Below, piece by piece: positions 1-19,292 of a stretch of DNA of 64,000 nt. The stretch is from Halomarina pelagica. GTDB taxonomy: Archaea > Halobacteriota > Halobacteria > Halobacteriales > Haloarculaceae. Below the pieces are notes generated by a model. That model was not told where the DNA came from, did no database searches, and saw only the letters and a list, made by a program, of their open reading frames with translations. Numbering within the stretch: position 1 is the first letter of the stretch; each line of letters opens with the position of its first letter. Made by a program: the position numbers and the translations under genes. The stretch spans positions 2,232,001 to 2,296,000 of the forward strand of contig NZ_CP100454.1 in NCBI RefSeq assembly GCF_024228315.1, in the 5' to 3' direction.

Positions 1-1903
1 GGTACTCGACGTAGTCCTCGCGCACCTCCCGGAGGCTCCGGAAGGGCGCGACGCTCGACCCGTCGTAGCTGACATTCGTGCCCGACACGGCGACGTCGCG
101 CACGTACCAGCCCTCGTTCGCGACCGCCCAGTCGGTCTGATAGCGGAAGGCGACGAGCACCTCCTGGCCCGCGTACGCCGAGAGGTCGAACTCCTCGGTC
201 ACCCACGAGCCGTTCGTGCTCCCGGTGAAGCCGGGGACGTTCGCCGCAACGTCGGGGTGCGCACCGTCGGCGAGTTCGGTGGACGTGTTCCCGTTCGCGA
301 GGCTGGTCCACGTCTCGCCGCCGTCGGTCGAGACCTGCACGAAGCCGTAGTCCCACGCCCGCTCGATGTCGTAGTAGGTCTCGAACCCGAGCGTCGGGTC
401 CTCGACGTTCGTCAGGTGGGCCTCGAAGATGGCGCGGTTGTCGAGGAGGTCCCCCCGCCCGCTGTAGAGGACGGTGTCGCCCGAGCCGGTCGGGTCGGCC
501 GCGGTCGTCCACCTCGTCCCGGTGAAGTCGATGCCGTTGATCGTGACGCCGGCGACCGGTCCCTCGCCCGCGGCGTCGACGGTGGTGTGAGAGGCACCCC
601 ACGCGGCGGCCTCCCGGTCCGGATCGCTCGTGTTCACGTCGAGGTCGATGGTGCGGAACTCGTAGCGTGGCTTACTGGCGCGGCCCATCCCGTCCGCGAC
701 GGTCGCCGTCGAGAAGTCCTGGTAGAGCGAGTAGAAGTCCCCCTCGTGACCCTCCGCCTCGAGCACGCCCTCGACGCTCGCGATGCCGTTTTGGTCGTCG
801 CGGGCGATCGCCCGGATCGCGTCCTCGCCGTACTGCTCGTAGAGGTACAGCTGGAAGAGGTAGGCGTGGCCGTAATCCGCGAGGACGTTGATCGCGCCCT
901 CGTCCTCCCACTCGACCAGCGAGTTGTCCGGGCTGGCCTCGAAGGCGCTGACGTGCCCCTCGGGGTGGCCGTAGCCGACCGCGTACTCCGCGAAGTCGGA
1001 GAGCCCCTCGTTCACCCACGTCGTCTCGTCGGCGTCCAGGTCGCCGTGGACGAGGTGCTGGTACTCGTGGGCGAAGGTGCCCTCGACGAGGTGCGGGACG
1101 TTCCGCTCGTCGCCCGGCTCCTTCCACGGGGCGTCGGGACCGCCCGCGCGGTGCTGCCAGTCGTAGGCGTCGACCGTCACGACGTTGCGGTCGGTGTACC
1201 GCTGGATGGTCGGCGAGTAGAACCCGGCGACGTAGTTCGGGTAGTCCGCGTCGTAGTAGTTCTCGTCGCGGACGTTGTCGACGAGGACGACCGAGCGCCC
1301 CTCGCCGTCAGTCCGCCAGTAGTTCTCCGGTAGGCCGAGCGCCTCGTCGAGCGCCTCGGTCCCGTTGCGCGGCGCGGGCGTTCCGAACAGCTCGCTCTCG
1401 GTCGGGTAGATGTTCGAGTCGAACTCCTCGGCGAGGTAGTCGAGTTGCGCGTCGGTCACCCGCGGCGTAGAGCGCGGGTCGTCGGACGGCCACGAGAGGT
1501 CCTCGGCGACCCAGATCTCGACCTCCTCGCCCACCTCTCGGAGGGTGAACTCCTTGAAGTAGTACCCGCCGCTGGCGTAGTCGAGCGCGAGGAAGTACTT
1601 CGTCTGGCCCTCCTGTGCGGCGGTCGATCCGGTCCCGCCGCCCGATCCGGCGGCGCTCGCTCCGTCGCCGCTCGCGCCCGCCGCGTCGCCGGGTAGCGTG
1701 TCGGCGTCGACGGGGAGCCGCGTGTCGTTCGGGGTCACCTCCGTCGGGCGGTACTCGATGGGTTCTTCGGCGGGGTCGGTCGCGGCGACCGACGCGGAAC
1801 CGTTCTCGGTGGACGGGTCCGCCACCCCGGCGACACCCCCCGTCCACGCGGTCGCGGTCGATACCACGACCAGGACTGTCAGTACGATGGTACGGATTCG
1901 CAT
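1..1903 (-). CDS. secreted zinc metalloprotease with InhA-like C-terminal region (partial)
   Basis: Begins at ATG 1903 and runs off the left edge after 634 codons, so the C-terminus is missing. Residues 1-27 look like an export signal. An acidic Gly/Ala/Ser-rich linker follows to about residue 100. The zinc motif HEYQH is at 279-283, followed by a WVNEGLSDF segment that would supply the third (Glu) ligand, as in gluzincin-type proteases. The last 150 residues seen contain the FVQVSTDGGETW type of sequence found in immune inhibitor A MAM/jelly-roll domains. It should act outside the cell on proteins. An M30 (hyicolysin-like) assignment is possible instead of M6. A TATA-like box lies near 1951-1960. 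Confidence 0.8.
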   Translation of the reverse strand, partial: MRIRTIVLTVLVVVSTATAWTGGVAGVADPSTENGSASVAATDPAEEPIEYRPTEVTPNDTRLPVDADTLPGDAAGASGDGASAAGSGGGTGSTAAQEGQTKYFLALDYASGGYYFKEFTLREVGEEVEIWVAEDLSWPSDDPRSTPRVTDAQLDYLAEEFDSNIYPTESELFGTPAPRNGTEALDEALGLPENYWRTDGEGRSVVLVDNVRDENYYDADYPNYVAGFYSPTIQRYTDRNVVTVDAYDWQHRAGGPDAPWKEPGDERNVPHLVEGTFAHEYQHLVHGDLDADETTWVNEGLSDFAEYAVGYGHPEGHVSAFEASPDNSLVEWEDEGAINVLADYGHAYLFQLYLYEQYGEDAIRAIARDDQNGIASVEGVLEAEGHEGDFYSLYQDFSTATVADGMGRASKPRYEFRTIDLDVNTSDPDREAAAWGASHTTVDAAGEGPVAGVTINGIDFTGTRWTTAADPTGSGDTVLYSGRGDLLDNRAIFEAHLTNVEDPTLGFETYYDIERAWDYGFVQVSTDGGETWTSLANGNTSTELADGAHPDVAANVPGFTGSTNGSWVTEEFDLSAYAGQEVLVAFRYQTDWAVANEGWYVRDVAVSGTNVSYDGSSVAPFRSLREVREDYVEY

Positions 1904-5957: not shown

Positions 5958-6044
5958 GGCGAACAGGCGACGCCGCAGTGGGATCTGGTTCGCGGGGCGT
6001 GGCGTCGCACACCCGCGGACACCCCGCGACGACTCTCACGTCAC
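5958..6044 (-). ncRNA. candidate small RNA or micro-ORF core, copy 1
   Basis: About 87 nt, beginning GTGACGTGAG, nearly identical to the cores at 9822 and 18916. A TATA box (6075-6067) lies 27 bp before the first conserved base, as expected for an archaeal transcription start. The core can form a stem between TGTCCGCGGG and CCCGCGAACC around a conserved 14-16-nt loop. It also has a GTG-started frame at 6039 reading MRVVAGCPRVCDATPRE. Whether RNA or peptide is the product is not settled. Confidence 0.5.
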
Positions 6045-6066
6045 AGGGGCACTGGCCGCGCTCTCT

Positions 6067-6075
6067 GTTATAAAC
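6067..6075 (-). promoter_or_regulatory. TATA box of element copy 1
   Basis: GTTTATAAC on the minus strand, 27 bp before the conserved core. The 20 bp between box and core (GAGAGC, then CCAG) are also conserved with the other copies. Confidence 0.6.
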
Positions 6076-6264
6076 GTACGGACGGGACGACTGGCCTCTG
6101 GCTCACCACCGCCAGCGTCAGCGCGGTAGCCGCGAGGAGCGCGGGATTCAGAGAGCCCCGCGGACAGTGCGAACGGCCGGTGCTGTCGGCCGCGAGCGAG
6201 GCGCGAAGCGCCGAGCGAGCGGACCGAGGAGCGACCAGCGGGAGCGACGAGGGTTTTAGTCGAG

Positions 6265-6318
6265 GTTTTACCAGCGACCGAGCGCGAGCGAAGCGAGCGC
6301 GAGGGAGCGCAGTAAAAC
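6265..6318 (-). repeat. AT-closed hairpin after secG, copy 1
   Basis: Minus-strand GTTTTAC at one end pairs with GTAAAAC at the other, with a CGCTCG-rich interior. It lies directly after the secG stop codon. Related hairpins follow amzA (9596) and the PAPS-reductase-like gene (18727). Confidence 0.6.
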
Positions 6319-6326
6319 GTCGTGGT

Positions 6327-6485
6327 TCAGACGACGTTGAGCACCATCACCAGCAGTCCGAACATGACGCCGAAGGCGACGACGGTGCGCGGATCGATCT
6401 GGGGGGCGTTGCGGTCCTCGGAGTCGAAGTAGCGGACGAGTCCGGCGCTCGACATCAGACCGCCGGTGTTCTGGCCACGGCTCAT
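6327..6485 (-). CDS. secG: preprotein translocase subunit SecG (Sec61-beta)
   Basis: 52 residues from ATG 6485. The sequence has the archaeal Sec-beta pattern: a polar N-terminus with [12 protein letters not shown], a DPRTV linker and one C-terminal membrane helix ([15 protein letters not shown]). It joins SecY and SecE in the protein-conducting channel. A minus-strand AAAAGC box near 6514 lies about 29 bp upstream. It is divergent from trxA with only 98 bp between the starts. Confidence 0.93.
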
Positions 6486-6517
6486 GCCTTCCGGTGGGTC
6501 CGGTATCGCCGTAAGCT

Positions 6518-6546
6518 TTTCCACTACTTGCCCACGCCAGTGGAAA
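6518..6546. promoter_or_regulatory. inverted repeat between secG and trxA promoters
   Basis: TTTCCACT at 6518-6525 is the exact reverse complement of AGTGGAAA at 6539-6546, with a 13-bp gap. It lies between the two divergent promoters and could be a shared regulator site. It also resembles half of an origin-recognition box but lacks the rest of that motif. Confidence 0.4.
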
Positions 6547-6583
6547 CCCTTATTCCCGAGAACGGGTAAGCGTGGGTGGACCG

Positions 6584-6853
6584 ATGACTGTCACCCTCAA
6601 GGATTTCTACGCCGATTGGTGCGGCCCGTGTAAGACCCAGGATCCCATCCTGGAGGACCTGGCGGAGGACTGGGACGGCCGCTTCGAGGTCGAGAAGGTG
6701 AACGTCGACGAGGAGCAGGACGTCGCGAACGAGTACCAGGTCCGTTCGCTCCCGACGCTCATCGTGGAGAACGACGATGGCGTCGTCGAGCGCTTCGTCG
6801 GCGTCACCCAGCGCGAGGACATCGAGGACGCCCTCGAATCCGCCGGCGCGTAA
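6584..6853 (+). CDS. trxA: thioredoxin
   Basis: 89 residues from ATG 6584; an in-frame GTG at 6572 is less likely because a TATA-like CTTATTCC at 6549-6556 predicts a start near 6580. The redox motif WCGPC is at residues 12-16 and the cis-Pro loop is in SLPTLIV near 60. The fold is complete though short. It reduces protein disulfides in the cytoplasm. Confidence 0.92.
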
Positions 6854-6971
6854 GCCGTAGATACCCCGTTTTCTGGACGGCGCGAACCGAAGGACCGAGG
6901 AGCCGAAGAGCCGAAGAGCCGAGCGGTTCCCGCGGCGCGTGCCTGCGTCTCGCGGACCCGCGCCGCGGCGT

Positions 6972-7640
6972 TCACTGGAAGCGGACGCCGAGGTCGTGCA
7001 TGCCTTCGTTGTGTATCGCGACGTTGACGAGCAGCGGCGTCAGCGCCTCCACCTCGCTCGCGTTGGCGAGGCCGCCCGCGTCGAGCGGGCGCAGTCCCTC
7101 GATCTCGTCGGCGAGCAGCATCACGATGTCCTTGGCGTCCGCGTCGTCGCCGAAGACGAGCGTGTCCCACTCGACCTCGGCGTCCAGGTCGGCGAACCTG
7201 CCCGCGGCGAGGTTGTGGAACGCGCCGACGACGGGCACGTCGTCGGGGGCGGCGTCGGCACAGAGCGCCGCCACGCTGCCCGCGCTCGGCGGGTTGTAGT
7301 GCAGTCCCGAATCGTCGCGCTTCATCCCCACTGCGGGCGTGACGAGGACGGTGTCGGGGTCGAGCCGGTCGGCGATGGACTCGACGGTGTCCACGAGGTG
7401 GTAGGCGGGGACCGCGACGACCACCACGTCCGCGCGGTCGGCGGCCATCTCGTTGGCGAATCCTTTCACGTCCGCCTCGATCCCGCGGCTGTCGAGTTCG
7501 GTCACGTACTCCTCGGCCTTCCCCCGGGCGCGCTCGGGGTCGCGCGAGCCGATCAGGATCTCGTGGTCGGTGTCGTAGGCCCAGCGGAGCGCGAGCGCCT
7601 CGCCGATGTCGCCGGTGCCGCCGCAGAGTGCGATTCGCAT
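6972..7640 (-). CDS. npdG: NADPH-dependent F420 reductase
   Basis: 222 residues. The N-terminal GGTGDIG (7-13) is the dinucleotide-binding loop, and GSRDPERA (31-38) is the segment that recognises the NADP phosphate. Central features (VVVAVPAYH, VTPAVGMK, AFHNLAAG) match the F420-dependent NADP oxidoreductase family. It moves hydride between F420 and NADP. It is a single-gene unit, with short GCCGAAGA direct repeats (about 6899-6922) downstream. Confidence 0.92.
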   Translation of the reverse strand: MRIALCGGTGDIGEALALRWAYDTDHEILIGSRDPERARGKAEEYVTELDSRGIEADVKGFANEMAADRADVVVVAVPAYHLVDTVESIADRLDPDTVLVTPAVGMKRDDSGLHYNPPSAGSVAALCADAAPDDVPVVGAFHNLAAGRFADLDAEVEWDTLVFGDDADAKDIVMLLADEIEGLRPLDAGGLANASEVEALTPLLVNVAIHNEGMHDLGVRFQ

Positions 7641-7733
7641 ACCTGGGAGTCGCGGGAGGGACGATTAAGCGTTGTGCGACGCGCTCACTCGACGCGCACC
7701 GAGGCGAATCTCGAGACTCGACGAAGAGCCGCG

Positions 7734-8612
7734 TCAGCGCGGTTCGAGCAGTTCGGGCACGTCGTTGACGCTGTCCCGGACTGCCCGCGCGCCCGCGCGT
7801 TCGAACTTCCGGCGGCCCGATTCGCCCGAGAGGCCGCCGGTGAGGACGCCGATCCCGTGGTAGGTGCGTTCCGGGTCCGCCTCCTCGGCGTTGACGGCCG
7901 TCCGCACGTCGTCGAGGGTGTCGCCGACGAACGCGAGCGCCTCGGCGTCGAAGCGCTCTGCGAGGCTGACGAGTGCCTCTGGCTCGGGTTTGCCCGGCGC
8001 GTCGTGATCCATCGTGAACAGGTAGGCGTCGGGCACGTCGAGGCTGACCCGATCCAGGGCGATGGCCGCCTCGGCCGCCGGGCGGCCCGTCACGACGCCC
8101 ACGTCGTAGCGCTCGACGAGCGCCGCGAGCGTCCCCTCCTCGACGAGGACCGTCTCGTCGTTGATGAACCCCTCCGTGTCGAGGGATGGTTCGCCGCCCT
8201 CCAGTTCGCGGTACAGGTCGCTCCCGAGGTAGAGCTGCTGGAATACGTCGGTCAGCTTCTCGGGGTCCCAGGCGGCGAGGACGCGCTCTCGCTGGTCGGG
8301 GTCGAGCTTGTCGGCGACGACGGTCTGTGCCCCGTCGATGCCGCCCCCGCTGGCCGCGATGGCGTCCGCGAAGGTCGCAGTCGAGTACTCGTAGCCGTGA
8401 CGGCGCGCGAGGACGAGCAGCGCGGCCGCGTGAGTGAGGTCCCAGTCGTCGTTGAACCCGCCCGCGTCCTTGAACAACTGAATCGTCTCCCGCTCGATCG
8501 TCTCGCCGTAGACGTGTTCGATGGACTCGACGATGGCGCGGCGGTAGGACTCGGAGACGTCGACGAGGACGCCGTCGACGTCGAGGACGACGGCGTCGAC
8601 CGCGAGCGTCAC
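7734..8612 (-). CDS. HAD superfamily phosphatase (TIGR01548-like)
   Basis: 292 residues from GTG 8612, whose start overlaps the TGA of the upstream UPF0146 gene (GTGA). The DVDGVLVDV motif at the N-terminus contains the nucleophile and acid/base Asp. VVTGRP supplies the second conserved segment and FVGDTLDDV the last metal ligands. A helical cap lies between. Family members in haloarchaea are called histidinol-phosphatase-like or phosphoglycolate-phosphatase-like, so the substrate is open. Confidence 0.85.
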
Positions 8613-9010
8613 GTCGCAACCCCCCGCTCGCGGGCGGTGAACAGCGTCGTCCCCGGGAGCGTCTCCCGAGTCACCGGGATCTCCGGTTGATCCCCGCCGA
8701 GCGTGGTGAAGTGGAACGCCGCGCCGACGCGACGGGCGACGGCCCGCGTCGGACGGTGCAGTTCGGGCGGGAGGCAGATGGCGTACAGCGCTTCCGCCCC
8801 CTCGTACACCGAGAGCGTCGGTCGGGTGACGTCGTCGCGGACGAACTCGACGCCGGGCGGCGTCGGTCGGTCGTGAACGTCGGTGGCGACGACCGAGGCG
8901 CACTGCGCGAGGGGGCGCGCGACGTCGTCGCGATGCCCGATGCCGACCTCCACGACCGAGTCGTAGTAACAGAGGCGCTCCAGCAGCGCGTCGCGTGTTG
9001 CCGGATTCAC
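8609..9010 (-). CDS. UPF0146 family protein
   Basis: 133 residues from GTG 9010. An ATG at 9055 is possible but would start inside amzA. The [13 protein letters not shown] stretch resembles a methyltransferase nucleotide-binding loop in shortened form, and the family has no known activity. It overlaps the following HAD gene by 4 nt, so the pair is almost certainly cotranscribed and coupled. Confidence 0.75.
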
Positions 9011-9016
9011 GTCGGG

Positions 9017-9026
9017 ATATTTATAG
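9017..9026 (+). promoter_or_regulatory. TATA box of amzA
   Basis: ATATTTATAG is centred 27 bp before ATG 9050, predicting a leaderless transcript. Confidence 0.6.
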
Positions 9027-9049
9027 CTGGCCCGCTCTAATCTCTTGCT

Positions 9050-9571
9050 ATGCACGTTGACATCGTGCCGATCGGCGACGTGCCCCCCGCCGTCAAGCGC
9101 GAGGCGTCATCTGGTCTGCGTGCGGTCTACGACTGCGACGTAACCGTCCATAGCGCCCAGGAGATTCCCGAGGGAGCGTACGATCCGAGTCGGGGGCAAT
9201 ACCGAGCCGAGGAGTTCATCGAACTCGCCGGCCGGATCGGCGACGGCGACAAGAACATCGCCATCACGCCGAAGGACCTCTTCTACCGGCGGCGAAACTA
9301 CGTCTTCGGTCTCGCCTACCTCGACGGCAACGGGAGCGTCATCTCCACCTATCGACTTCAGACCTCCTCGGACGGCGGAATCGCCTCGAAGCCGGCCAGC
9401 GAGGTGTTCTCCGACCGCGTCAGAAAGGAGGTCGTCCACGAGATCGGACACACGCTCGGACTCGAACACTGCGACAACAACCGCTGCGTGATGAACTTCT
9501 CGCCGACCGTCCGCGAAGTCGACATGAAAGAGCAGAACCTCTGTGGGACCTGCTCGCGCCTCGTGCACTAG
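9050..9571 (+). CDS. amzA: archaemetzincin zinc protease
   Basis: 173 residues. The archaemetzincin signature is complete: H130, E131, H134, G137 and H140, followed by Cys 141 and 146, Met 148 of the Met-turn, and the CGTC pair (165, 168). The first three histidines bind the catalytic zinc and the four cysteines bind a second zinc. No signal peptide is present, so it acts in the cytoplasm. The natural substrate is unknown. The stop codon is followed within 25 bp by the AT-closed hairpin of composite element copy 2. Confidence 0.95.
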   Translation: MHVDIVPIGDVPPAVKREASSGLRAVYDCDVTVHSAQEIPEGAYDPSRGQYRAEEFIELAGRIGDGDKNIAITPKDLFYRRRNYVFGLAYLDGNGSVISTYRLQTSSDGGIASKPASEVFSDRVRKEVVHEIGHTLGLEHCDNNRCVMNFSPTVREVDMKEQNLCGTCSRLVH

Positions 9572-9595
9572 AACCACGACGTTTTGAACTCCCAC

Positions 9596-9647
9596 GTTTT
9601 GCTGCGCTCGTTCGCGCGCCTGTGGCGCGCTCACTCGCTGGCAAAAC
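9596..9647 (+). repeat. AT-closed hairpin after amzA, copy 2
   Basis: GTTTTGC (9596-9602) pairs with GCAAAAC (9641-9647); an inner GCGCGCC/GGCGCGC stem lies at 9614-9630. The closing stem differs from copy 1 (GTTTTAC/GTAAAAC) by a paired change. Confidence 0.6.
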
Positions 9648-9791
9648 CTGGACTAAAACCGCGCCTCACCCTCTCAGTCGCTCCGCTCCTTCGAGGGATT
9701 CGGCGCGTCCGCTCGCTCGTTGCACTCGCTCGCGGTACGGTGCGCTGGCGTCGGCGGTCGGGGCTGTCGGATCGTTCACTCGCGCCGTAAC

Positions 9792-9799
9792 TTTATAAC
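9792..9799 (+). promoter_or_regulatory. TATA box of element copy 2
   Basis: TTTATAAC, 26 bp before the conserved GTGACGTGA that opens the core; the preceding GCCGTAAC could act as the TFB-binding element. Confidence 0.6.
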
Positions 9800-9821
9800 T
9801 GAGAGCGGGACCAGCGTCCGT

Positions 9822-9904
9822 GTGACGTGACGTTCGTCGCGGGGTGCTCGCGGGTGTGCGACGCCACGCCCCGCGAGCATCGCCGCGGCGTCGCCTGTTC
9901 GCCC
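9822..9904 (+). ncRNA. candidate small RNA or micro-ORF core, copy 2
   Basis: Opens GTGACGTGAC and ends CTGTTCGCCC like the other copies. TGCTCGCGGG (9845-9854) pairs perfectly over 10 bp with CCCGCGAGCA (9870-9879). Compared with copies 1 and 3, one pair has changed from T-A to C-G. The same two changes are silent in the GTG-started frame (9827) that reads MTFVAGCSRVCDATPRE. Confidence 0.5.
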
Positions 9905-18726: not shown

Positions 18727-18768
18727 CTTTTGCTGCGGTCGCTCGCTTCGCTCGCTCCCTAGCAAAAC
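18727..18768 (+). repeat. AT-closed hairpin after the PAPS-reductase-like gene, copy 3
   Basis: TTTTGCT (18728-18734) pairs with AGCAAAA (18761-18767) around a CGCTCG-rich interior, 22 bp after the stop codon. Confidence 0.6.
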
Positions 18769-18885
18769 CCTCCTCACCCCCTCGCTTCGCTCGGGGGTTC
18801 GTCGGTCCGCTCGCTCCCGCTGGTCGCTCACGGGTGCCACGCTGATGCCGGCGGTGGAATTCGAACTGTTCGACCCGTCCGTAGC

Positions 18886-18892
18886 TTTATAT
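18886..18892 (+). promoter_or_regulatory. TATA box of element copy 3
   Basis: TTTATAT, 27 bp before the core's GTGACGTGA. The 20 bp between (GAGAGCGGGACCAGCGTCC) are identical to copy 2. Confidence 0.6.
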
Positions 18893-18915
18893 CCGAGAGC
18901 GGGACCAGCGTCCGT

Positions 18916-19004
18916 GTGACGTGAGAGTCGTCGCGGGGTGTCTGCGGGTGTGCGACGCCACGCCCCGCGAACCGGATCCCGCCCACGGCGTCGCCTGTTC
19001 GCCC
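18916..19004 (+). ncRNA. candidate small RNA or micro-ORF core, copy 3
   Basis: Opens GTGACGTGAGAGTCGTCGCG and ends CTGTTCGCCC. The stem TGTCTGCGGG with CCCGCGAACC keeps a G-U wobble and the T-A version of the covarying pair. The frame from GTG 18921 reads MRVVAGCLRVCDATPREPDP and stays open for 45 codons to TAG 19056-19058. Confidence 0.5.
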
Positions 19005-19237
19005 ACGGTTTACCGCGCTCACTCGTCGCTGCGCGCCTCGTTCGCTGGTAACACATAGACGAAAACCCTCCTCACCCCCTCGTCGCGCCTCCGGCGCTCC
19101 TCGGGGGTTCGTCGGTCCGCTCGCTCCCACCGCCGGACTCGCGGTGCTCGTCCGGCGTGCTCCCGCTCGCCTCCGGCTCGCGGGAACTGCGGTCGCTCGT
19201 CGGTCCGCTCGTTCGGCCGTCGGCCTCACTCGTGGTC

Positions 19238-19292
19238 GTGCGACGCCACGCCCCGCGAACCGGATCCCGCCCATAGCCTCGCCTGTTTGCCC
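19238..19292 (+). repeat. truncated element core, copy 4
   Basis: GTGCGACGCCACGCCCCGCG onward matches the second half of the core, ending GCCTGTTTGCCC. The first 40 nt and the TATA box are missing, so it is probably a decayed copy. Confidence 0.6.

Follow-up and report, generated by a model that had tools for sequence, protein, structure and literature searches.

Three similar stretches of DNA in a 64,000-nucleotide segment of the Halomarina pelagica genome (hereafter the window) raise the question of what a dispersed element of this kind encodes. The window lies on the main contig, of 3.54 Mb, in a genome of 4.6 Mb. The original prediction placed copies at 6318-5958 (minus strand; copy A), 9596-9904 (plus strand; copy B) and 18727-19004 (plus strand; copy C), each with a hairpin, a spacer, a TATA box and a conserved core in that order. 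All three were recovered in this arrangement, and their TATA boxes are centred 27 bp upstream of 6044, 9822 and 18916, at the claimed spacing. The core of 85 nt is also present, but its extent required correction: conservation runs on to the tail CTGTTCGCC(A/C) and ends sharply there, with variable sequence beyond.

Chance similarity is excluded by the number of matches within the source genome. The 278 bp of copy C used as a BLAST query returned 62 (best non-self E = 4e-68), the core alone 41 and a covariance model representing the whole class 51. The features of the three copies are given in Table 1. A partial duplicate of the RNA tail region (93% identity) was also observed at window positions 19238-19292, approximately 240 bp past copy C.

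Table 1. Predicted features of the three element copies, in window coordinates.
Copy	Feature	Position	Strand	Remarks
C	AT-closed GC-rich hairpin	18728..18767	.	between upstream gene end and copy C; outside the RNA
C	TATA box TTTATAT	18886..18892	+	-30..-24 from predicted start
C	conserved CCA	18905..18907	+	-11..-9, between TATA and predicted start
C	predicted 5' end GTG-ACG-TGA, minimal leaderless start-stop	18916..18924	+	homologue pattern
C	S1 5' strand TCGCGGGGTG	18931..18940	+	covariation
C	S3 5' strand GCGG	18944..18947	+	pairs with tail YCGC
C	S2 5' strand GCGACGCC	18952..18959	+	covariation
C	S1 3' strand CGCCCCGCGA	18961..18970	+	covariation
C	S2 3' strand GGCGTCGC	18987..18994	+	covariation
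C	conserved tail CTGTTCGCC (internal loop and S3 3' strand)	18995..19003	+	
C	full model match	18905..19003	+	78.5 bits, E 4.6e-12
C	similar hairpin immediately past copy C	19007..19052	.	
B	TATA box	9792..9798	+	
B	predicted 5' end GTG-ACG-TGA	9822..9830	+	
B	S1 5' strand	9837..9846	+	
B	S2 5' strand	9858..9865	+	
B	S1 3' strand	9867..9876	+	
B	S2 3' strand	9887..9894	+	
B	tail CTGTTCGCC	9895..9903	+	
B	full model match	9811..9903	+	77.1 bits
A	TATA box	6068..6074	-	
A	predicted 5' end GTG-ACG-TGA	6036..6044	-	
A	S1 5' strand	6020..6029	-	
A	S2 5' strand	6001..6008	-	
A	S1 3' strand	5990..5999	-	
A	S2 3' strand	5967..5974	-	
A	tail CTGTTCGCC	5958..5966	-	
A	full model match	5958..6055	-	80.9 bits

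Promoter and predicted start of transcription

A promoter logo was derived from 114 sequences from outside the source genome, aligned on the RTG at the predicted start. It comprises a BRE-like CCGA at -37..-34, a TATA box at -30..-24, CCA at -11..-9, C at -1 and R at +1. A BRE/TATA element 27 bp upstream of a Y-R start is the expected archaeal geometry, and initiation at the R of the conserved CRTG is therefore well supported as a prediction. A promoter of its own with a fixed start, as found across these 114 sequences, is what characterises an archaeal intergenic sRNA gene. The logo, together with the covariation described below, thus bears out the proposal of an RNA gene family that carries its own promoter and starts at the predicted base. 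CCA and the CGGGA preceding it, between the TATA box and the start, are kept throughout the class, which suggests a shared transcription factor or a constraint on initiation. At one locus (L041, copy at 1694-1792, minus strand), sequence resembling the end of an insertion sequence takes the place of the TATA box, and this copy may consequently be silent. At another (L054, ~1609-1692), short tandem repeats (CAGTCGTCGCCGATTGGCATTACGGCGAC) lie immediately past the RNA copy.

The predicted 5' end reads RTG-NNN-TRA (TGA or TAA) in 147 of 154 distinct sequences, and in 135 of those 147 the first helix, S1, lies at a distance of 14-16 nt. GUG is the start codon in 88% of cases. TAG is absent from the motif, and the middle triplet favours M-N-C, a preference that translation does not require; for these reasons, RTG-NNC-TRA may be an RNA motif and not a set of codons.

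Compensatory change in the predicted pseudoknot

Comparison of the copies identifies each as a predicted gene for a structured RNA of approximately 80-90 nt, predicted to form an H-type pseudoknot. Two interleaved helices emerged from an alignment of 36 copies: S1 of 10 bp (TCGCGGGGYG/CGCCCCGCGA in the source genome) and S2 of 7-8 bp (GCGACGCC/GGCGTCGC in the source genome; general form GCGACRC/GYGTCGC). A third helix, S3, of 4 bp (GCGR/YCGC), extends S2 across a conserved internal loop. Within the source genome, pairing holds in 99.5% of cells, and two-sided changes occur at 9 of 18 pairs, against 1.5 in shuffles. Across the class (56 sequences), 140 two-sided cells were counted against 36 in shuffles, none of 500 shuffles scoring as high, and sliding the partner strand abolished pairing. 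A further 70 sequences were aligned with a model that contained S1 but not S2; here, two-sided changes were nonetheless present at 5 of the 8 S2 pairs, and S3 was paired in 98% of cells, with its variable pair G-U in 58 sequences, G-C in 7 and A-U in 5. Interleaved helices backed by compensatory changes are the signature of an H-type pseudoknot.

The helices are constrained in different ways. In S1 the shape is kept and the sequence is free: members of the class alter nearly every S1 base yet retain 10 bp, the average for the helix, and when partner strands were exchanged between sequences, only 3.9% of the substitutes scored equally high. Over S2, the tail and the internal loop, it is the sequence itself that is kept. 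Between 24 orthologous pairs, identity is 81.5% over the RNA, 59% in the upstream flank and 40% in the downstream flank, and these comparisons together indicate that the RNA is under selection. Counting against this assignment, nested minimum-free-energy folding is unremarkable in four of five copies (z -0.64 to 0.27; the other, -3.35), and most copies are missing a downstream T-run (T4 within 100 nt in 13% of copies outside the source genome). Mimicry of the 23S A-loop by the tail CTGTTCGCC was considered and dropped, the flanking stem being a poor fit.

Distribution and genomic setting

The covariance-model search of haloarchaeal genomes that the original prediction proposed was run, and revealed a family spanning the class. 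One model (R1) matched at least 98 of 146 genomes of the taxonomic family; another (R2) matched at least 222 of 391 sampled genomes of the class, in at least 46 of 86 genera. Among 393 genomes sampled across the phylum, the matches listed all fall in genomes of the order Halobacteriales. The genera that carry the RNA include Halobaculum, Haloarcula, Halosimplex, Halorubrum, Halobellus, Haloarchaeobius and Halostella. Almost every match spans the full length, with both helices present. Sensitive counting gave 51, 54, 25, 24 and 30 copies in five genomes and 0, 1, 2 or 5 in ten others. As whole genera are without it, the RNA family must be dispensable.

Overlap with predicted genes was sought for the copies and none was found, placing them between genes. 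The upstream gene on the same strand mostly ends 20-90 nt before the CCA, while the downstream gene is convergent in 69% of cases, its stop typically 20-45 nt behind the RNA. The neighbours are ordinary housekeeping genes with no relation to one another: their 90 proteins carry 116 Pfam families, with no recurrent family and no excess of transposases. Sites differ between genera, and syntenic loci are kept within them. Searches of plasmid, phage and viral collections with the family gave no match. In the source genome, all 50 listed copies (of 51 matches) are carried by the main chromosome (P = 2e-6 if placement were uniform). Since the family is not associated with transposases, has no copies on plasmids or phages and resides on the chromosome only, the end of a known insertion sequence no longer serves as an explanation for the similarity.

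Hairpins and rearrangements in Halomarina

The AT-closed hairpin, by contrast with the rest of the predicted element, does not belong to it. Other genera conserve the promoter and the RNA only, and the hairpin is a separate Halomarina repeat that flanks other sites too and also occurs without the RNA. These hairpins sit within longer inverted repeats, located at gene ends and on either side of the RNA, and flank the cassettes of Halomarina but not the copies of other genera. In the window, AT-closed GC-rich hairpins at 9597-9646, 18728-18767 and 19007-19052 come straight after the ends of genes and of the RNA; they may act as two-way terminators, both strands carrying T tracts.

RNA copies coincide with inversion breakpoints between Halomarina species. 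The 3.9-kb segment between copies A and B (window 5958-9903) is inverted with respect to H. halobia, with breakpoints that fall at RNA elements (loci L198:9959-13904 and L193:5850-9762 compared; inverted relative to their flanks). Two other cassettes, each with a single RNA copy, are flipped in place between species and bounded by inverted hairpin repeats, CCACCTTTTGCTGCG...GGCAAAAGCTGGA (L196:8092-8738 against L194:5548-6184; L197:7497-7957 against L195:6755-7207). Recombination between repeats would account for these inversions and probably lies behind part of the Halomarina copy number. Seven Halomarina genomes were examined at the window site for a clean empty site, and none was found; the RNA is missing from the loci fetched, and in those that were read the neighbouring gene differs too.

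Alternative explanations

A selfish, SINE- or MITE-like cassette, bearing a promoter and an RNA of no host function and spread by recombination or borrowed enzymes, would fit the range of copy number between genera (0 to 54), the differing sites and the presence of Halomarina copies inside repeat-flanked cassettes that invert. It fits poorly with the full length and intact helices of nearly all matches, the syntenic loci kept within genera and the lack of terminal repeats common to different genera. Moreover, whereas the listed copies are exclusively chromosomal, 10 of the 24 TnpB genes of the source genome reside on other contigs; no excess of nearby transposases and no plasmid, phage or viral copies were found. 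We regard this explanation as unlikely. A stranded or domesticated guide (omega) RNA of the TnpB/IscB type, in which the pseudoknot serves the nuclease and the 3' flank is the guide, is suggested by the pseudoknot that haloarchaeal omega RNAs likewise contain (PMC12558985) and by the sharp 3' boundary followed by variable sequence. However, a single TnpB gene of the 24 lies within 2 kb of a copy (1 of 50 listed copies), and the model matched one of six scanned TnpB loci, the one near that copy. The 3' flank, at 40% identity between orthologous loci, holds no conserved guide segment, the RNA carries a promoter of its own and a right-end hairpin was not observed, making a guide RNA highly improbable.

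Coding in the element itself, as a micropeptide family read through the core from a leaderless mRNA, had been the other half of the original prediction. The predicted transcript does begin on a start codon, and a later frame stays open through the copies at 18916 and 9822. Nevertheless, in 95% of sequences a stop follows the first two codons of the first frame, RNA length shows no preference modulo 3 (55/50/53), stops fall in each of the three frames in 76-120 of 158 sequences, and change is compensatory in the helices and not concentrated at third codon positions; a micropeptide can practically be dismissed. A cis-acting element, whether riboswitch, leader or 3'-end insulator of a neighbouring gene, would draw on the closeness of the convergent gene stop in 69% of copies and on the frequency of pseudoknots among riboswitches. 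Against it stand the unrelated neighbours, the identity of fold and promoter in every context and the position of most copies, which have no co-directional gene behind them as a riboswitch or leader would; such a role seems improbable. A more serious contender retains the same RNA class but gives it a role apart from the ribosome, as an RNP scaffold or a decoy that binds protein, for example a sponge for an RNA-binding regulator. Conservation of sequence in S2, loop and tail beside a freely varying S1, and the wide variation in dosage, would both be expected of it, but it leaves the near-invariant RTG-NNC-TRA and its fixed distance of 14-16 nt from S1 unexplained. We consider it a real possibility, short of an even chance.

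Proposed mechanism

The reading we favour is of an RNA that meets the translation machinery. TBP and TFB would bring RNA polymerase to the BRE/TATA box of each copy, transcription would begin at the R of CRTG, and the transcript would fold into the pseudoknot of S1 and S2, with S3 as an extension across the internal loop. Being conserved in sequence, S2, the internal loop and the tail may form a binding surface for one protein or particle. We infer action in trans because the 69% of copies that face a convergent gene have none behind them to control. A trans-acting RNP is, on balance, the probable form of the product.

The likeliest partner would be the translation machinery, given that the predicted 5' end opens on a start codon followed by a single codon and a stop, and that the pseudoknot sets in at ~+15, close to where an initiating ribosome has its leading edge. 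The RNA might capture or hold initiating ribosomes or their subunits as a decoy, with copy number setting the dose. Engagement of ribosomes through the start-stop 5' end is a tentative prediction, with a precedent in the Haloferax volcanii non-coding sRNAs that show ribosome occupancy (PMC12482152) and in rancRNA_s194 (PMC6104027). This step is weakened by the inefficiency of leaderless GUG starts, for which PMC4983044 gives 2.6% of AUG efficiency in one of the assays it cites. More speculative still is the complete model, in which pseudoknotted RNAs mimic a minimal leaderless message and capture or stall initiating ribosomes, exerting gene-dosage-tuned control of leaderless translation from up to ~50 genes per chromosome; we offer it as a rather doubtful proposal.

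Structured RNA families that span an archaeal class outside Rfam are expected to be rare. The present family combines class-wide occurrence, 0 to >50 copies, confinement to the main chromosome in the source genome, a compensatory pseudoknot and a predicted 5' end of start, codon and stop. With these traits, RNA control of leaderless translation becomes a directly testable question.

Comparison with known RNAs and repeats

Neither the window nor the RNA at 11 loci (10 from other genomes) matched a family of Rfam 15, and a permissive scan returned sub-threshold matches only. The open-access literature, searched by sequence and by sRNA name, yielded no link to the RNA family. The family is thus apparently undescribed; that it is a class of RNA with its own promoter we think very probable from the comparative sequence evidence. 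H-type pseudoknots are familiar from riboswitches and recoding signals, SAM-II, preQ1 and the retroviral readthrough pseudoknots among them, and in readthrough signals the pseudoknot likewise starts a few bases past a stop codon. Unlike these, the present family has no downstream reading frame or regulated gene and no Rfam match.

The sRNAs and rancRNAs of Haloferax volcanii (s194, IG1.7, Hts4; PMC6104027, PMC12482152) are closer in kind, being likewise small, intergenic and haloarchaeal. They measure 70-100 nt and have their own promoters, and some are ribosome-bound without coding (PMC6104027, PMC12482152): rancRNA_s194 binds the 50S subunit (PMC6104027), and ribosome occupancy is described for non-coding sRNAs (PMC12482152). 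Most of the H. volcanii sRNAs examined in PMC3956466 have no homologue in other haloarchaea, and single transcripts of the present family may already stand, unrecognised, in haloarchaeal sRNA lists, for example among the few conserved ones in that study. As described, however, the H. volcanii sRNAs are set apart as mostly species- or genus-specific single genes for which no covariation is reported. The TnpB omega RNAs, or sotRNAs, of IS200/IS605 elements (PMC12558985) are likewise archaeal, structured, pseudoknotted and multicopy; the family described here differs in that it lacks tnpB and a conserved guide, carries a promoter of its own and is found on the chromosome only. REP and MITE repeats share with it their dispersal between genes in many copies, whereas the present family is distinguished by a promoter, a compensatory pseudoknot, syntenic loci that are retained and a purely chromosomal location.
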